Origin: Archaeoglobaceae archaeon
Lineage (GTDB): Archaea > Halobacteriota > Archaeoglobi > Archaeoglobales > Archaeoglobaceae
DNA length: 33,517 nucleotides
Reading direction: 5' to 3'
Assembly: GCA_015520485.1 (NCBI GenBank)
Contig: WAPX01000030.1
Span: forward strand, 1-33,517
Made by a program: the position numbers and the translations under genes
Notes under the pieces: model-generated
Told to the model about the DNA's origin: nothing
Seen by the model: only the letters and a program-made list of their open reading frames with translations
Databases searched by the model: none
In this document: piece by piece, positions 13,899 through 20,957 of the stretch
Position numbering within the stretch: position 1 is the first letter of the stretch
Layout of the letters: each line of letters opens with the position of its first letter

Positions 13899-14618
13899 CT
13901 AACTCATCACTATTTCTTTTGCAATTGTTTTCTCCTCTTGTCTTAGCTCGGCGAAATACTTACGCAGCTTTCCACTACCCCTTGCCTCTTCGAATATGAG
14001 ATTGAAAGTCTTTAGAATGCTTAATATTCTAGGTTCGATTACCGAAACGTACTCCGGTCTCTTGGTCTTCACGCCACGGATTATCAAATCGTAAGCGACC
14101 TCGTCTCTAAAGTTGCTTGGAATCTCCTTGACGATGTAAATCAGAGCTAAAAGGTTAATAGAATCTTCGATGAAGTCGTCCAGCCCAGATTCCCTGAGCG
14201 TCTGGACGAATTTCTCAACTTTCCCTTCTTCCACAATAGAGGGAGGAGGGAGACGGAAATCAGAGGGAAACCTTGGAAAGCTGGGTGATATGCTTAAAAC
14301 TCTTCTAAGTTCATTCTCAAAATGCTTGTAGTGAACAACTTGTATGGTTTTGCCATGTACTTCTATTCTCATTTCCTGATCCAGATTATCTACGATAACA
14401 AAAGCGAGGTTCAAATTTGTTTTTGATAATTTTTCAGCATCTTTCTTTGAATCACTTGTTCGACTAACTTCGATGCCAATTGATTTTCTGTGTGATTTAC
14501 TGTATCCATACACATCGGTTCTCTCCGTTGAAGATATGTAATGCTCCAGCTCGGCATCAAAATCGTAGTACTCAAGTATAGCTTTAAGATACTCCTGAAT
14601 TTTGCGATGCTTCTCCAA
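13899..14618 (-). CDS. PD-(D/E)XK-like nuclease-fold protein, unknown function
   Basis: I do not recognise a named family. In the N-terminal third, TDVYGYS (D35) is followed by SIGIEVSR (E50), then a charged helix KKDAEKLSK and a strand LAFVIVDN. This is the order of the restriction-endonuclease core, D...(E)xK, although the usual lysine after the glutamate is replaced by S/R. The C-terminal 120 residues are helical. The start is a TTG at 14618, seven bases behind a perfect GGAGGTGG. The frame is open to an ATG at 14738, but a TATA element lies in that stretch. Total 239 residues. The gene is next to a broken small gene and a gene-poor gap, which suggests an accessory or acquired segment. Confidence 0.6.
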   Translation of the reverse strand: MEKHRKIQEYLKAILEYYDFDAELEHYISSTERTDVYGYSKSHRKSIGIEVSRTSDSKKDAEKLSKTNLNLAFVIVDNLDQEMRIEVHGKTIQVVHYKHFENELRRVLSISPSFPRFPSDFRLPPPSIVEEGKVEKFVQTLRESGLDDFIEDSINLLALIYIVKEIPSNFRDEVAYDLIIRGVKTKRPEYVSVIEPRILSILKTFNLIFEEARGSGKLRKYFAELRQEEKTIAKEIVMS

Positions 14619-15013
14619 AATAATACCACCTCCACTACTGTCAATCGTAGTTTGCGAATCTATTGTACAGGAGGTTGCCAAGGCAATGCTTTTCTCGCTG
14701 TGTGAAATACTGTTTAAATATCTCTGAGGTGTATCCATTATTATTATAGTCCTGTGCAGAAAGTGTTATACCTATCCCAACTGTTATTCAACTCAACAGT
14801 GGCAGATAAACCATAGAATCAGCATATTCTCATAACCTTATGTTTGGAGCGTTGTGCACCTGACTACAATGTTTCGCTCTGTTGAAAAAATAGCTACAAC
14901 AATTACTGGTATAAAGAATTGAAACAATAGTCTATCAGTATTCATTAATCCAGAACTTTTCCATAAATCTGTACTTATTTTCAAACAAGATAAAGCACAA
15001 AATAAATTAAAAA
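14619..15013. other. A+T-rich gene-poor gap
   Basis: Apart from the promoter and ribosome site of the preceding minus-strand gene, I find no open frame, tRNA or intact repeat array here. It contains an ACTGTT/AACAGT hairpin-like pair (near 14780-14800) and a possible lone CRISPR-type repeat ending GAATTGAAAC near 14916-14925. Confidence 0.5.
14711..14720 (-). promoter_or_regulatory. TATA element of the PD-(D/E)XK-like gene
   Basis: Minus-strand TATTTAAACA is a near-consensus archaeal TATA box. It lies ~95 bases before the TTG at 14618, predicting a leader of about 70 bases that ends in the GGAGGTGG site. Confidence 0.5.
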
Positions 15014-15673
15014 TCAAAACTCAAGCAGTTTTCTTATTCTGGCTTCGCTCTCTCCAAGGTTTTCAGCTATTCTGTCAGGAGAGCTAATTCCCGTAACTTC
15101 CGAGTAAAGCTTGACGAAATCCGCAGCAACTTCGTCATCGTCCAGATCCCACATACCAGAAAAGAACGGATGAAAGTCCTCGAGAAAGTCTGCAAGCTTC
15201 CCCTCTGTTTTTCCCTCTAACATCATCGAAACGTAGTCTTCGTCGAAAAAGGAGCAATCCCTGAGAATCTTTATCACAGCCCTTCTCAAAGACTCTACGT
15301 CGTACTGTTTTCCGGGAGGGGAATATATCTCCAATATCGAATCCATTTCCTCCCTGCTGAACGGGAAAACCCTCTCCCTGTTCCTCCTATCCCTGCATAT
15401 CTCCATTAAAATACTGTGAGTTCTCCTGTCCACATACGCAATTCTGCTCTTTCCAGCGCTGGTCAGCCTGACGACGTACCTGCCGCTGCTGTCGGGATTT
15501 CTTCTCACGTCCTTTTTTACGAGGTTTTCCAATTCATCTCCCGTTGCGAGTGTGGATATTATTAGCCTCACCATGCCGTGGTGCAGGCTGGATTTCCTTG
15601 AAGTTACGGATATGTGGTGAATGTCGAAGTCGAGCCTCATTAGCTCATCCTTCATTCTGTCAGAAATTTGCAT
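15014..15673 (-). CDS. tyrosine-recombinase-like protein lacking catalytic residues
   Basis: The 219-residue protein aligns by eye with the catalytic domain of archaeal XerC/D-type integrases. MVRLIISTLATGDELENLV corresponds to the usual helix ending in TGLR-SEL, GRYVVRLTSAGKSRIAYV to the beta-hairpin with its lysine, RVFPFSREEMDSIL to the next helix, and ESLRRAVIKIL to HxLRH. The first catalytic Arg is replaced (GDE), the HxxR His is missing, and I see no convincing nucleophilic Tyr. It may be a domesticated DNA-binding relative rather than an enzyme. Start ATG 15673 has GGAGGT at the right spacing, which rules out ATG 15700. It is divergent from the OB-fold/primase genes, with a shared ~60-base gap. 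Confidence 0.5.
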   Translation of the reverse strand: MQISDRMKDELMRLDFDIHHISVTSRKSSLHHGMVRLIISTLATGDELENLVKKDVRRNPDSSGRYVVRLTSAGKSRIAYVDRRTHSILMEICRDRRNRERVFPFSREEMDSILEIYSPPGKQYDVESLRRAVIKILRDCSFFDEDYVSMMLEGKTEGKLADFLEDFHPFFSGMWDLDDDEVAADFVKLYSEVTGISSPDRIAENLGESEARIRKLLEF

Positions 15674-15731
15674 GTCCCAACCTCCGACATTTATGGGCAA
15701 TAATTTTTAGGGTGGTGTGAAAGGTTTAACG

Positions 15732-16598
15732 ATGTCCGGTACCGGCGAGAAAAACAGCATGAAAGGCAAAGCTGGAAGGATCGAAAAAATCTTAAAAAGA
15801 TTTGAGGGGCTCGTTGACGAGGAAACTCTGAACATGCTTGCTCTCTACGCAATGGGTGAGCTTGACCTGAATTGCGAGGTTAAAAACGTCAGGTTTTACC
15901 TCTCCCCGGACAGGGCTATTCTCCACGTAAAGCTTGTAAAGCCCGAAACCGGAATTGATGAGTGCAGGATTTTGATCAGAGGAGATATGCTTGAATACCT
16001 TCCAAAAATATCTGCTGGAAGCGTGATTTCTGTTTCTGGAAGTTTTGCAGGGGATGTTTTCAGGGCGAAGAGGTTGCAGATCCTGAAACACAAAAGCGAA
16101 TACGTTGAAGGCTGGGTTGTGGATGCGGAGGACAGAGTTCTGTGTATTTCAAGCGGGAACACGTGTCTGAGCTGTTACACTGCATTCGTTTCAAATAATT
16201 TAAGCTGTTTAAGCTGTGAACACGCATTTGTATCGGCGTGCGGGGTGAAGGTTGACAGAGATGTCTTCGTGGCTGAAAGCGTAAAGGTTGAAAATGCAAA
16301 GCCCAGCAATCCATTAAAAAATCCCTTTAAACCGGTTGAGGAAGCAAAAGCCTGCAATGGTAGAGTTTGCGTCGAAGGAAGGGTCAGCGGAATCGGGCAG
16401 GTTAAAAAGTTTAAGGGAAGAGAGTACGCGAGCCTGCACATCTCCGACGGGAGTGGGAGAGTCAAACTGATGCTGTGGAACGACCTCTCGGTTTACAGAA
16501 AAGCCGACATAGGGAGCCACGTTCAGGTATTTGGCTGCAGGGCGGACGGAAACGCTCTTCACTGCGACGAATTCACGATAATACGGCTCGTGCAGTGA
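15732..16598 (+). CDS. two-OB-fold protein with central Cys cluster, RPA-like
   Basis: The 288-residue protein has an OB-like domain at about 45-120, a cysteine cluster at 138-170, and a second clear OB fold at about 208-286 (CVEGRVSGIGQVKKFKGREY, then LHISDGSGRVKLMLWND). The cluster holds C138, C145, C148, C159, C162 and C170, including two CLSC pairs that look like a duplicated half-site for a zinc ion. Tandem OB folds with zinc are typical of archaeal RPA-type single-strand binding proteins. The gene abuts primase subunit PriL, which supports a role at the replication fork or in repair. The start is uncertain: ATG 15732 chosen, GTG 15717 and ATG 15759 are possible. Confidence 0.7.
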   Translation: MSGTGEKNSMKGKAGRIEKILKRFEGLVDEETLNMLALYAMGELDLNCEVKNVRFYLSPDRAILHVKLVKPETGIDECRILIRGDMLEYLPKISAGSVISVSGSFAGDVFRAKRLQILKHKSEYVEGWVVDAEDRVLCISSGNTCLSCYTAFVSNNLSCLSCEHAFVSACGVKVDRDVFVAESVKVENAKPSNPLKNPFKPVEEAKACNGRVCVEGRVSGIGQVKKFKGREYASLHISDGSGRVKLMLWNDLSVYRKADIGSHVQVFGCRADGNALHCDEFTIIRLVQ

Positions 16599-16603
16599 TC
16601 GGA

Positions 16604-17797
16604 ATGCAGGCGTACTTGCCGGTTTTACCGGTAATAGCAAGGTATCCCTTCGTCAGGGCTACTGGAAAGTTTCTTGAAAGGGAGTACGGATCTTTGAGCG
16701 CCATATTCGAATCCGAAAGAGAAATAGAAAAGGGAGCTGTGGAATCAGCTCTGAACGGTATCGGAAGAATCGCTGAGGGAAAAAAGGGAAAAATTGCAAG
16801 ACCGTTCAGAATTGATAAAAGCTGGCCAATGCTGTGCTTTTCCTGCGAAAGGGATTGCGTTGAGTGTGAAAGTCTGAAACGCCTCGACTTCAGGTGCGAA
16901 ATGTGCTGCAAATGCTTCGAAAACTGCCGTCAAAAATCTGCTGAATATCTGGAACTCAGGATGAAGGCTAAGGCGTCTGCAGTTTACTACCTGACATGCA
17001 GAGCCATTCTCCAGCACGTAAGTCCCTGGATCAGAAGGAAGTTCGCAGTTCAGGAGGCGAGGGCTTACAGAAAAAACATGGAACACGATCTGGAAGAGGG
17101 AAGACAGGACGTACTGAGCTTTTTAGCAGCAGATCTTGGAATTCTTGCAGAGTTCGGGAAAAGCAGCCGCATTCACGTTACTTCCTACCTCAGGGGAGCG
17201 GTCAGGATAAAAGACGAGAAGTGGAGACTCGTTAACAGGAGAGTTGAAAGGGGCTGGGTTGAGGTGACGGAGAGAGAAATCGTGAGGCTGATGGAAGAGG
17301 TTTTGAGAGAGAAACTGGAGCAGCCAGCGAACATCCAGCTCCCGGAGAACCTGCTGAAAGCTGTGAAAAGCATCTCTGAAAGAGAAGTTGAGAGAGTTGA
17401 CATCTCCCTGCCCGTAAGGCTCGACTGCATACCCCCGTGCATGAAAAAAATCCTTTCAGACCTGCAGAAGGGGGTCAACATACCTCACACTGCGAGGTTT
17501 GCCATAACTTCCTTCCTGCTTAACATAGGCATGAGCGTTGATTCGATAGTCGAGCTTTTCAGCTCGGCTCCGGATTTCGATGAGGAAAAGACGAGGTATC
17601 AGGTTGAGCACATTGCCGGGCAGAGGGGAAAGGGCTCCGAATACATCTGTCCCTCCTGCGAGACTATGAGAACATACCACAACTGCTGTGCAGATTGCGG
17701 AGTGTCGAGTCCTTTAACGTACTATGCCAAGAAGAGAAGGGAGATCGAAAAAAGGAGAAAGAAAAGCTCAGCGGGGAAAAGCAGCATCGCAGATTGA
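16604..17797 (+). CDS. priL: DNA primase large subunit with Cys-rich insertion
   Basis: PriL is the regulatory subunit of the archaeal/eukaryotic primase and holds a [4Fe-4S] cluster needed for primer initiation. The C-terminal domain is recognisable by CIPPC (275-279), then GVNIPHTARFAITSFLLNIG, and Cys at 349, 352, 361, 362 and 365. The N-terminal helical domain includes QEARAYR and LAADLGI. The protein has 397 residues. An unusual segment at 78-108 has nine Cys (78, 81, 85, 88, 98, 101, 102, 104, 108), enough for another metal site. The start may be ATG 16604, or GTG 16595, which would overlap the previous stop (GTGA) and couple translation. PriS is not in the window. Confidence 0.88.
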   Translation: MQAYLPVLPVIARYPFVRATGKFLEREYGSLSAIFESEREIEKGAVESALNGIGRIAEGKKGKIARPFRIDKSWPMLCFSCERDCVECESLKRLDFRCEMCCKCFENCRQKSAEYLELRMKAKASAVYYLTCRAILQHVSPWIRRKFAVQEARAYRKNMEHDLEEGRQDVLSFLAADLGILAEFGKSSRIHVTSYLRGAVRIKDEKWRLVNRRVERGWVEVTEREIVRLMEEVLREKLEQPANIQLPENLLKAVKSISEREVERVDISLPVRLDCIPPCMKKILSDLQKGVNIPHTARFAITSFLLNIGMSVDSIVELFSSAPDFDEEKTRYQVEHIAGQRGKGSEYICPSCETMRTYHNCCADCGVSSPLTYYAKKRREIEKRRKKSSAGKSSIAD

Positions 17798-18089: not shown

Positions 18090-19481
18090 TTAAAATTTAT
18101 ATTTAATAACACAGTTTAATCCCTTCCACACAACCCGAATTCCAAGCTTTTTAATGGTGTCTTCGTCGAATCTCAAACCTTCTTCTTCCACCATTGATTT
18201 CAGCTCTTCTACGCTCTCAGGTCTTTTCTCCGAGATTTTTACCTTCAATCTGTCAATTTTATCATCAATTTTTTCTCCTTTAACATTTTTTTCAGCTTTC
18301 TCTACTTTTTCTTCCACGTTTCCAAATTTTCTGGCGAGCCTGTTTACTGCTTTCACGACTTCTCCGTAATCGATTTTTCTGGAAAACAGGACGACTTCCG
18401 GCATGTCGCCAATTCCTGTTTCTCCAAACTCCTCTCTTGCGACGACGATCAGGGGAACTTTTGAGGAAACTATTTTTTCCACTTTTCTTTTCAGGTAGTC
18501 TTCAGTCCAGAACCCCGCAATTTCAACGTAAACTTTTTCGCTCCACCCGTCTTTCCAGATCGCAAAGTCGGGTATGAACGCTCTGCCTCCTGCGTCAACG
18601 ACTCCCGGCTCTCTCTCCACATGGTAACCAAGATTTCTAATCCTTCTAAAAAATTCTGCCTCGAAAGACGAATCGTATTTTACGTCTGATTTGAGTTCAG
18701 GAAACAGGTGTTTTGATGAGCTGTCGAGCTCGAATCTGTAAAGCCTGTCGTTTTCGAGAATTTTGGCATTAATTCTCCACCTTTTCGCGGAAATTACGTG
18801 TGGTATTACTTTTGCCATGGAAATTCCGTACTTTCTCACCATCTTTATAAGAGACGCAGGACCTGTCACCTCGACTTCCACTCTCTTTCCAGCCTCTTTT
18901 ATTTCGTACATGAGTCCGAAAAACTTTACAGCTCTGAAAACAGGTTTGTAATTTCCCTCTACCTCAAACCTCATTGCAGTGCTGTTGAAAAGCGTTGTTT
19001 GCAGGAGTGAAAGGTTGTACATTTTTATCAGCATGTCAGCATCCATCTCATCAACTTTTGAAATTACAAGCTCTTCCTCTCTATCAGCGTACATCGCCCT
19101 CTCGATGTCCTGCGGTTCAACGTTAAAGTACCTCGATGCGTAGGTAATTATCCTGTCTCTTTCAGCTCTGGACGTTACGAATCCTCTCTCAAAAAGGAAC
19201 ATTCTGACTGCGTGTGGATCCAGACCCGTATCGGAATACCTGCATGCCTTCTCGATACAGTGGTTTTCGAGAACCCTCGCAAAACCTCTAACCTTCTTGT
19301 AGTTTTCAGCACTTTCCAGCCTCCTCAGAGCATGCATAACCTGTCCGTATTTTTTACCCAGTCCCGACCTGAAAATCTCTATGACCCTTTCAGCGAGCTG
19401 AGCATCTCTATCCGATTCGGCAAACTTCGGATAAATTCTGCCTTTAACCTTTTTAGCGTCGAGCAGCTCCTTTGGCAGCAT
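18090..19481 (-). CDS. Bax1, XPB-associated nuclease (DUF790 family)
   Basis: Bax1 binds archaeal XPB and cuts DNA at bubble junctions during excision repair. The 463-residue protein shows the DUF790 layout: a helical N-terminal domain, a middle region with VEVEVTGPASLIKMVRKYGI, and a PD-(D/E)XK nuclease core. The core motif is FIPDFAI (D305) followed by VYVEIAGFW (E320), with an earlier acidic E274 in SSFEAEFF. The C-terminal ~80 residues are a charged coiled region (EEKVEKAEKNVKGEKIDDK) ending in a small folded tail. The start ATG 19481 lies nine bases after the XPB stop, with the genes in the order XPB then Bax1, as is usual, so they are one operon. Confidence 0.92.
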   Translation of the reverse strand: MLPKELLDAKKVKGRIYPKFAESDRDAQLAERVIEIFRSGLGKKYGQVMHALRRLESAENYKKVRGFARVLENHCIEKACRYSDTGLDPHAVRMFLFERGFVTSRAERDRIITYASRYFNVEPQDIERAMYADREEELVISKVDEMDADMLIKMYNLSLLQTTLFNSTAMRFEVEGNYKPVFRAVKFFGLMYEIKEAGKRVEVEVTGPASLIKMVRKYGISMAKVIPHVISAKRWRINAKILENDRLYRFELDSSSKHLFPELKSDVKYDSSFEAEFFRRIRNLGYHVEREPGVVDAGGRAFIPDFAIWKDGWSEKVYVEIAGFWTEDYLKRKVEKIVSSKVPLIVVAREEFGETGIGDMPEVVLFSRKIDYGEVVKAVNRLARKFGNVEEKVEKAEKNVKGEKIDDKIDRLKVKISEKRPESVEELKSMVEEEGLRFDEDTIKKLGIRVVWKGLNCVIKYKF

Positions 19482-19489
19482 GGTATCAC

Positions 19490-20842
19490 TTAGCTTTTAC
19501 TTTTTGCCTTTTTGATTGCTCTCCTCCTCGCAGTACCGACTTCTCCCGTGTTTTTCGAAATCAATTCGTAGAGCACAGCTTTCTTTCCTCTGGCAGGTCT
19601 TAAAATCCTTCCAAGCCTCTGGATGTACTCTCTCTGGCTCGCACTTCCGCTAACTATAATCGCCACGTTGGCGTCGGGAACGTCTATTCCCTCGTCAAGT
19701 ACCTGACTGCTTACTAAAGCCCTGAATCTCCCAGTTTTAAACCCGTTCAGTACCTCTTTTCTTTCGTCCTTCGGCGTCTTGTGGGTGATTGACGGGATGA
19801 GAAAAGTTCTGGATATTTTGTAAACCATATCGTTGTGCTTTGTAAAAATTATAATTTTGTCATCTCTGTGTTTTTCTAAAATCTCCCTGAGTTTTTTCAG
19901 CTTGCTCGACGAGTTGTAGGCAATCTTCCTCGCCTCTTCCCACGCCCTGAGGGTGACGTACGCCTGCCTGTCGTAACCGGTCGCCATTACTATCCTGTTA
20001 AAGTCCTCAACTCCCCTTATTTTCAGCTTCTTTGACTTCAGGTATTCCCTGACGACTTTCATTCTCTTCTCGTATTCTCTGCTCTCCTCCTCGCTTAGCG
20101 GCAGGTACATCCTTTTCACGCTGTAACTTGCGAGATGTTCTCCCGCAAGCTCGTCAACCCCCACTTCGAATACCTTACCTCCCACGAGCTCCGGCAACCT
20201 CTCGTGTTTTCCGTCAACTCTTTCGTAGGTAGCGGTTAATCCAAGCCTGTAGGGAGAAGCACTCATTTCCGCTATCAACGAATAAGATTCAGAGGGTAAA
20301 TGGTGCACCTCGTCAAATACGACAAATTTGAACCTGTTGCCGAGAACCTCTGCATTTGCGTAAGCGGAATCGTAAGTTGACACAGTAATAGGTTTCAGTT
20401 CCTTCTTCCTGCCCGAAAACTCTCCTGTATTTTCTTCTCCAAAAACCCTCAGCTTGTTCAGCCACTGATCAAGCAAGTCGAGAGTTGGAACGACAACAAG
20501 TGTTGCCTCAGATACCTCTTTTATTGCTGCTATTGCTATGTAGGTTTTACCGCTACCTGTTGGCAAAACTATGCAGCCTCTTTTATCCACAAGCCAAGCT
20601 TTTAAGGCTCTCTTCTGATAATCTCTCAGCTTCAAATCCACGTTGAACTCTGGGCAGGGTATGGCGTTGAAAACGTAATCTCGATACCGAATTCCGGAAA
20701 CTTCAAAATAGCTGATAACGTCTCTGTACTTATAAGCCATGAGCCTGTAACACTTCTCCTTCGCATCGTAGGTGGCGTTGGGTATGTGAACGTCTCCCCT
20801 GATCACAAGCGTTCCCTTTAAATACCTGATTTCAGCAAACAT
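19490..20842 (-). CDS. XPB/Rad25-type DNA helicase
   Basis: This 450-residue SF2 helicase opens DNA for excision repair together with Bax1. It has an N-terminal damage-recognition domain (1-70), Walker A LPTGSGKT (93-100), DEVH box (177-180), motif III LTAT (202-205), the C-terminal RecA lobe with [16 protein letters not shown], and motif [11 protein letters not shown]. The sequence closely follows A. fulgidus XPB as I recall it, including the start (A. fulgidus begins MIAEIYYERG, this one [10 protein letters not shown]). I therefore placed the start at ATG 20842, not 20884. The conserved RED motif reads R208-V-D210 here. It is the first gene of the XPB-Bax1 operon. Confidence 0.95.
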
Positions 20843-20957
20843 TTCAGAGTGAATACGTGTAAAAGCGTAATACATTTTACGCATTTGAAAACGTGAATAC
20901 TAAAAGAATGCGAAGGACGTGGTATACGGATGGTTAACATTTGCAGGAGGGTTAATT

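Follow-up and report, generated by a model that had tools for sequence, protein, structure and literature searches.

The large subunit of DNA primase (PriL) in the archaeal order Archaeoglobales carries an insert in its N-terminal domain that is homologous to ferredoxins with two [4Fe-4S] clusters. We studied it in a 33,517-nucleotide stretch of DNA from an Archaeoglobaceae archaeon (contig WAPX01000030.1; hereafter the window). The reading that we consider likely is that a two-[4Fe-4S] ferredoxin was inserted once and then pared down, giving a three-cluster PriL in which the insert would form a structural or redox-sensitive module and would share no site with the replication factor A (RPA)-like protein encoded next to it. 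We found no earlier report of a ferredoxin insert in PriL in the open-licence literature. The relevant features of the window are as follows:

15732..16598, + strand (ORF 15717/15732-16598): OB-fold protein, a divergent RPA homologue (Pfam PF01336, E 2.7e-8)
16604..17797, + strand: priL, DNA primase large subunit (ATG start, 397 aa)
16799..16951, + strand: putative ferredoxin-derived insert with its flanks, PriL residues 66-116 (invariant Cys, Pfam matches of family f2, profile A3 against the PDB)
16835..16927, + strand: core Cys segment, residues 78-108, CX2CX3CX2CX9CX2CCXCX3C (direct reading; spacing table of 55 homologues)
17438..17698, + strand: predicted ligands of the C-terminal [4Fe-4S] domain, C279, C352, C361 and C365, the canonical PriL cluster (conservation; Sulfolobus PriL 5of3)

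The priL product matches Pfam family PF04104 with 123.5 bits (E 1.3e-35), above the Pfam cut-off of 22.4 bits; against the NCBIfam model PRK02249.1-3 it scores 331 bits (E 1.4e-98), slightly below the cut-off of 339 bits. The homology to PriL/p58 proteins of known structure (Sso PriL 5of3/1zt2; human 4rr2) extends over the whole length and includes the N-terminal helical body and the C-terminal [4Fe-4S] domain. The AF2 model (mean pLDDT 85) matches solved PriL structures, and primases were the only significant matches in a Foldseek search with the whole model. PriL is single-copy in its own genome, where one PriS partner is also present (PF01896 match at G000:C25:16915-17526, 97.7 bits); with one PriL and one PriS in the genome, the window protein is therefore very probably the subunit of the replicative primase. 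A second Fe-S domain, which the window PriL appears to possess, is not described in the solved or reviewed primases that we consulted.

Direct reading of the window PriL places its Cys residues at positions 78, 81, 85, 88, 98, 101, 102, 104, 108, 132, 275, 279, 349, 352, 361, 362 and 365. Nine of them lie between residues 78 and 108, exactly as a preliminary description of this DNA had it; when 17 Cys were placed at random in 397 residues, a 31-residue stretch with nine of them arose in 10 of 200,000 placements. Eight of the nine are ligand-like, whereas C102 is incidental: only 5 of 55 aligned homologues share it. For the C-terminal cluster, Cys 275, 279 and 349-365 had been named. The conserved ligand set within that list is C279, C352, C361 and C365, while residues 275, 349 and 362 are not conserved. 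None of the 55 aligned Archaeoglobi PriL proteins lacks C279, C352 or C361, an equivalent of C365 is found in every row of the alignment, shifted in some by a small indel, and Sulfolobus PriL (5of3) has Cys at the same four positions. The usual C-terminal cluster is thus predicted, from ligand conservation, to be retained, and the predicted total is three clusters. C102, C132, C275, C349 and C362 were rejected as ligands because they are not conserved in the 55-sequence alignment.

The Cys segment had been described as lying in a normally plain helical region. It proved instead to be an insertion at a short loop of Sulfolobus PriL: in a profile alignment, profile positions 59 and 121 correspond to Sso residues 52 and 64, and the site that holds about 60 residues in the window PriL holds only about 11 in Sulfolobus (Sso ~52-64), where the insert has no counterpart. 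The AF2 model of the window PriL places the insert after helix 40-57 and before helix 115-136; the pLDDT in its core is 63-73. A recent comparison placed the PriS–PriL interface of Asgard PriL on helices alpha5 and alpha6 (PMC12770985), and from the order of the helices we infer that the insert is located beside the PriS-binding face.

We searched 59 genomes of the class Archaeoglobi, each of which yielded a PriL match, and examined the insert in an alignment of 55 Archaeoglobi PriL proteins (A1). An eight-Cys insert is present in 46 of the 55 and occurs in both families of the order, f1 and f2. Exactly four insert Cys are found in seven further proteins and five in L054, through a neighbouring duplicate Cys, while L060, the only aligned member of the sister order, has none. 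The N-terminal Cys cluster was not found in 87 PriL proteins from outside the order, a set that covers the sister order and, through representatives, about 30 other families of Halobacteriota; in the phylum set, the only locus whose N-terminal part has a 40-residue stretch with four or more Cys was L085, itself an eight-Cys member of Archaeoglobales. The survey covered Halobacteriota plus solved structures, and some of the phylum loci are MAG sequences. No relative was found in viral contigs, and a scan of genome contigs for relatives returned two members of the genus and no more. Second PriL-like ORFs are present in four genomes (L061 in G016, L062 in G055, L063 in G014 and L064 in G010); these combine a PriL C-terminal domain with other N-terminal parts, L062 and L064 resemble PriS–PriL (PrimPol) fusions, and all four are probably mobile-element primases. 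No ferredoxin insert was found in these second genes.

In a PriL tree built without the insert, f2, the deepest lineage of Archaeoglobales, and f1, to which the window PriL belongs, are on opposite sides of well-supported branches. The tree requires one gain of the eight-Cys state and one change to four Cys, the latter in a clade formed by g12 and g4 (support 99/100). Among 42 aligned inserts, all eight Cys are invariant at a mean column identity of 34%; thus, the segment is neither absent from close relatives nor variable in its Cys among the eight-Cys members. The Cys cluster could also be read as functionless, a decaying insertion that is tolerated in a loop, as the free variation of loop length and of the non-Cys residues and the reduction in one clade would allow. 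However, drift would not keep reactive Cys fixed, and even the reduced clade still has at least four, so we regard this explanation as very improbable.

The nature of the insert is clearest in family f2. The inserts of its members L056 and L057 read CX2CX4CX3CP-X(15-24)-CX2CX2CX3C, a near-canonical two-cluster [4Fe-4S] ferredoxin, and share the ligand pattern CX2CX4CX3C...CX2CX2CX3C with known two-[4Fe-4S] ferredoxins (Fer4_7/Fer4_9; 6x6u_B, 6cz7_B, NrfC 2vpw_B, FdnH 1kqf_B). In Pfam searches, L056 matched Fer4_7 over residues 75-122 (6.1e-5; 23.8 bits, cut-off 27) and Fer4_9 (7.6e-4, under the curated cut-off), and L057 matched LdpA_Fe-S-bd (1.2e-5; 25.4 bits, cut-off 27.6). Because no f2 insert reached the Fer4 gathering cut-offs of Pfam, and the window insert gave no Pfam ferredoxin match, we filed the insert as ferredoxin-derived by sequence and not as a member of a Pfam ferredoxin family; unlike those ferredoxins, it is embedded in a primase. 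A profile of the 42 inserts (A3) searched against the PDB had dicluster Fe-S subunits as its top matches (6x6u_B, 1.2e-4; 6x1o_B, 1.7e-4; 6cz7_B, 7.7e-4), and all eight Cys were paired in the alignment to 6x6u_B. When the insert was compared by hhalign with ferredoxins from these genomes, the second half alone was aligned, at 54-80% probability. The AF2 model of an f2 insert fragment has the element order of a ferredoxin, E-H-E-E-H-E, at an overall pLDDT of only 62, and a Foldseek search with this fragment gave no significant match. At the level of profile comparison, we take these data to establish the homology of the insert to dicluster ferredoxins.

Fitted to ferredoxin numbering, the Cys of the window insert are C1=78, C2=81, C3=85, C4=88, C5=98, C6=101, C7=104 and C8=108. 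The final group, CX2CX2CX3C, is exact in all 46 eight-Cys members, the window included. The gap between C4 and C5 is 24 residues in L056, 15 in L057, 13 in g6-g9 and g11, and 7-10 in g1, g2, g3, g5 and g13. The first group reads CX2CX4CX3C both in f2, where it is followed by the CP proline, and in g6, g7, g9 and g11, where it is not. In the window it is CX2CX3CX2C, also without CP, which departs from the canonical ferredoxin spacing; compared with two-[4Fe-4S] ferredoxins, the window insert has only 31 residues, an altered C3-C4 spacing and no second CP proline. A profile of the short-loop subset, the group of the window, gave no convincing match, and a phmmer search of the PDB with the window insert alone gave no match. 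Since the f1-only and short-loop profiles are weaker, the ferredoxin ancestry of the insert rests on the homology of the f2 and the intermediate g6-g9 inserts and not on the window itself.

Dicluster ferredoxins bind one cluster through C1, C2, C3 and C8 and the other through C4-C7. The four-Cys proteins retain C1, C2 and C8 with good agreement. Their third Cys is probably C3, as the spacing CX2CX4C in g12 equals that of C1-C2-C3 in canonical members, while pairwise alignment is ambiguous between C3 and C4. The retained set of C1, C2 and C8 is therefore compatible with a lost ferredoxin cluster but not with a lost zinc site, whether the zinc sites are arranged as a cross-brace ({1,2,5,6} / {3,4,7,8}) or sequentially ({1-4} / {5-8}). 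This bears on the possibility that, in family f1, the ferredoxin-descended insert has become a finger with two bound zinc ions and a purely structural role. The loops are shortened in f1, the f1-only profile (A4) favours the PHD zinc fingers of BAZ2A/BAZ2B (4.6e-3 to 7.9e-3) over ferredoxins (0.026 and weaker), and structural zinc is already used by PriS (PMC4434180). Neither the pattern of the four-Cys clade nor the strict conservation of the CX2CX2CX3C half agrees with such a finger, which we consider unlikely.

In the reading that we prefer, the PriL of the Archaeoglobales ancestor would have acquired a bacterial-type two-[4Fe-4S] ferredoxin domain in a single event. The domain would have entered the N-terminal domain at a loop that follows its early helices and comes before the long helices leading to the C-terminal arm. 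In the lineage of the window, shortening of the loops would then have cut the insert to about 31 residues, with all eight cluster ligands kept. By ferredoxin topology, one cluster would be held by C78, C81, C85 and C108 and the other by C88, C98, C101 and C104. Together with the C-terminal cluster, the window PriL probably holds three [4Fe-4S] clusters, an occupancy that, like every functional step, we infer. The suggestion in the preliminary description that primase has an additional metal or redox site is thus well supported at the sequence level by an order-wide insert with invariant Cys and dicluster ferredoxin homology. As for its role, the insert may act as a cluster-stabilised module near the PriS-binding face, shaping the PriS–PriL contact or the docking of partners, and the primase may through it respond to the redox state or to the supply of iron.

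The clusters could also serve as an electron relay, in which electrons from cellular ferredoxin, or DNA-mediated charge, would reach or leave the C-terminal cluster by way of the two insert clusters and switch the enzyme between tight and loose DNA binding. A relay would be in keeping with the ferredoxin ancestry of the insert, with the 61-98 Fer4_7 matches per genome in the five genomes of the class that were searched, and with the proposal that the C-terminal cluster of primase acts as a redox switch (treated, and contested, in PMC5700102). However, Sso primase in which the Fe-S domain is replaced by PriX, and which thus lacks a Fe-S domain of its own, still primes (PMC5700102), the C-terminal domain is attached by a loose tether, and the four-Cys clade persists although it has lost the ligands of one cluster. 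Because of this loss and of the activity of the PriX form, we rank a structural or sensing module as the most likely role and consider the relay improbable.

The OB-fold protein encoded before priL has, as described earlier, six Cys (143, 150, 153, 164, 167 and 175, numbered from GTG 15717) and two CLSC motifs. It shares the FxGLVDEETLxLLALYAxG start and the C-terminal OB domain with archaeal replication factor A (PRK15491-type), is matched by the RPA models of NCBIfam (E 4e-6) and matches RPA-like proteins of other Archaeoglobales. It is, however, strongly diverged, scoring 26.3 bits against the RPA equivalog, far below the NCBIfam cut-off of 362 bits, where the G020 protein scores 114. In a reciprocal search with the G020 RPA-like protein, this OB gene was the sole match in its own genome (G000). 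Homology to RPA is thus supported by sequence similarity, with orthology assigned by elimination only. The strong divergence of RPA in this genus (compared with G020:C1:1840023-1840982) coincides with the move of the gene to the side of priL.

The Cys of this protein fared differently from those of PriL when relatives were compared. In an alignment of six orthologues from the genus (A2), the Cys-rich middle part is not conserved: the second CLSC is found in the window only, being absent in L003-L006 and reduced to one Cys in L002, and the first CLSC pair is broken in L006. A conserved zinc or Fe-S site in the OB protein is not supported, since the Cys ligands are not kept in the orthologues. 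The position of the gene is also restricted, as it lies directly before priL in this genus only. At the other Archaeoglobi loci examined, the gene directly upstream of priL is about 250 aa long, except at one locus at a contig end; the five of these genes that we read out were recognised from their sequences as PCNA, and a PCNA gene upstream of priL was reported earlier for A. fulgidus (PMC2643942). In the genus of the window, PCNA is located elsewhere and the RPA-like gene occupies its place.

The preliminary description had proposed a metal site shared between the two proteins. The genes are adjacent in the genus, and in Pyrococcus the archaeal RPA is a binding partner of primase (PMC11686378). 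That contact is on PriS, however, and not made via the Fe-S domain of PriL (PMC11686378), the OB Cys vary within the genus, and the insert is found throughout the order without an OB neighbour; a joint metal site from the PriL insert and the OB/RPA protein is therefore hardly credible. Judged from these gene orders and alignments, the RPA-like gene moved next to priL in this genus alone, and its product shares no metal site with PriL; since RPA binds primase through PriS in Pyrococcus, its adjacency to priL makes functional sense without one. Three PCNA-like genes are present in the genome of the window (G000:C23:19355-20089, G000:C36:2393-3088 and G000:C33:11124-11823), of which the canonical one is 83% identical to G020 PCNA, another has 40% identity and the third is broken by a TGA. 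Two ORFs adjoining the OB gene, 13899-14738 (- strand, 279 aa) and 15014-15700 (- strand, 228 aa), have no Pfam match. Convergent with priL, 18090-20884 (- strand) encodes an XPB-type helicase (XPB_DRD, ERCC3_RAD25_C) adjoining a DUF790 nuclease, which corresponds to an XPB-Bax1 repair pair.

A core DNA-copying enzyme of Archaeoglobales thus probably holds three iron-sulfur clusters where one is usual. The inserts form a rare stepwise series in which a ferredoxin domain wears down within an essential replication protein. The redox role of the primase Fe-S cluster is the subject of a live dispute. It is conceivable, if rather doubtful, that the captured two-cluster ferredoxin ties primer synthesis to the low-potential electron pool, so that priming by a three-cluster primase would be gated by the ferredoxin-level redox state. 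Together with their sister order, the cultivable Archaeoglobales offer a natural experiment: metal content, redox potential and priming can be set side by side for primases with eight, four and zero insert Cys.
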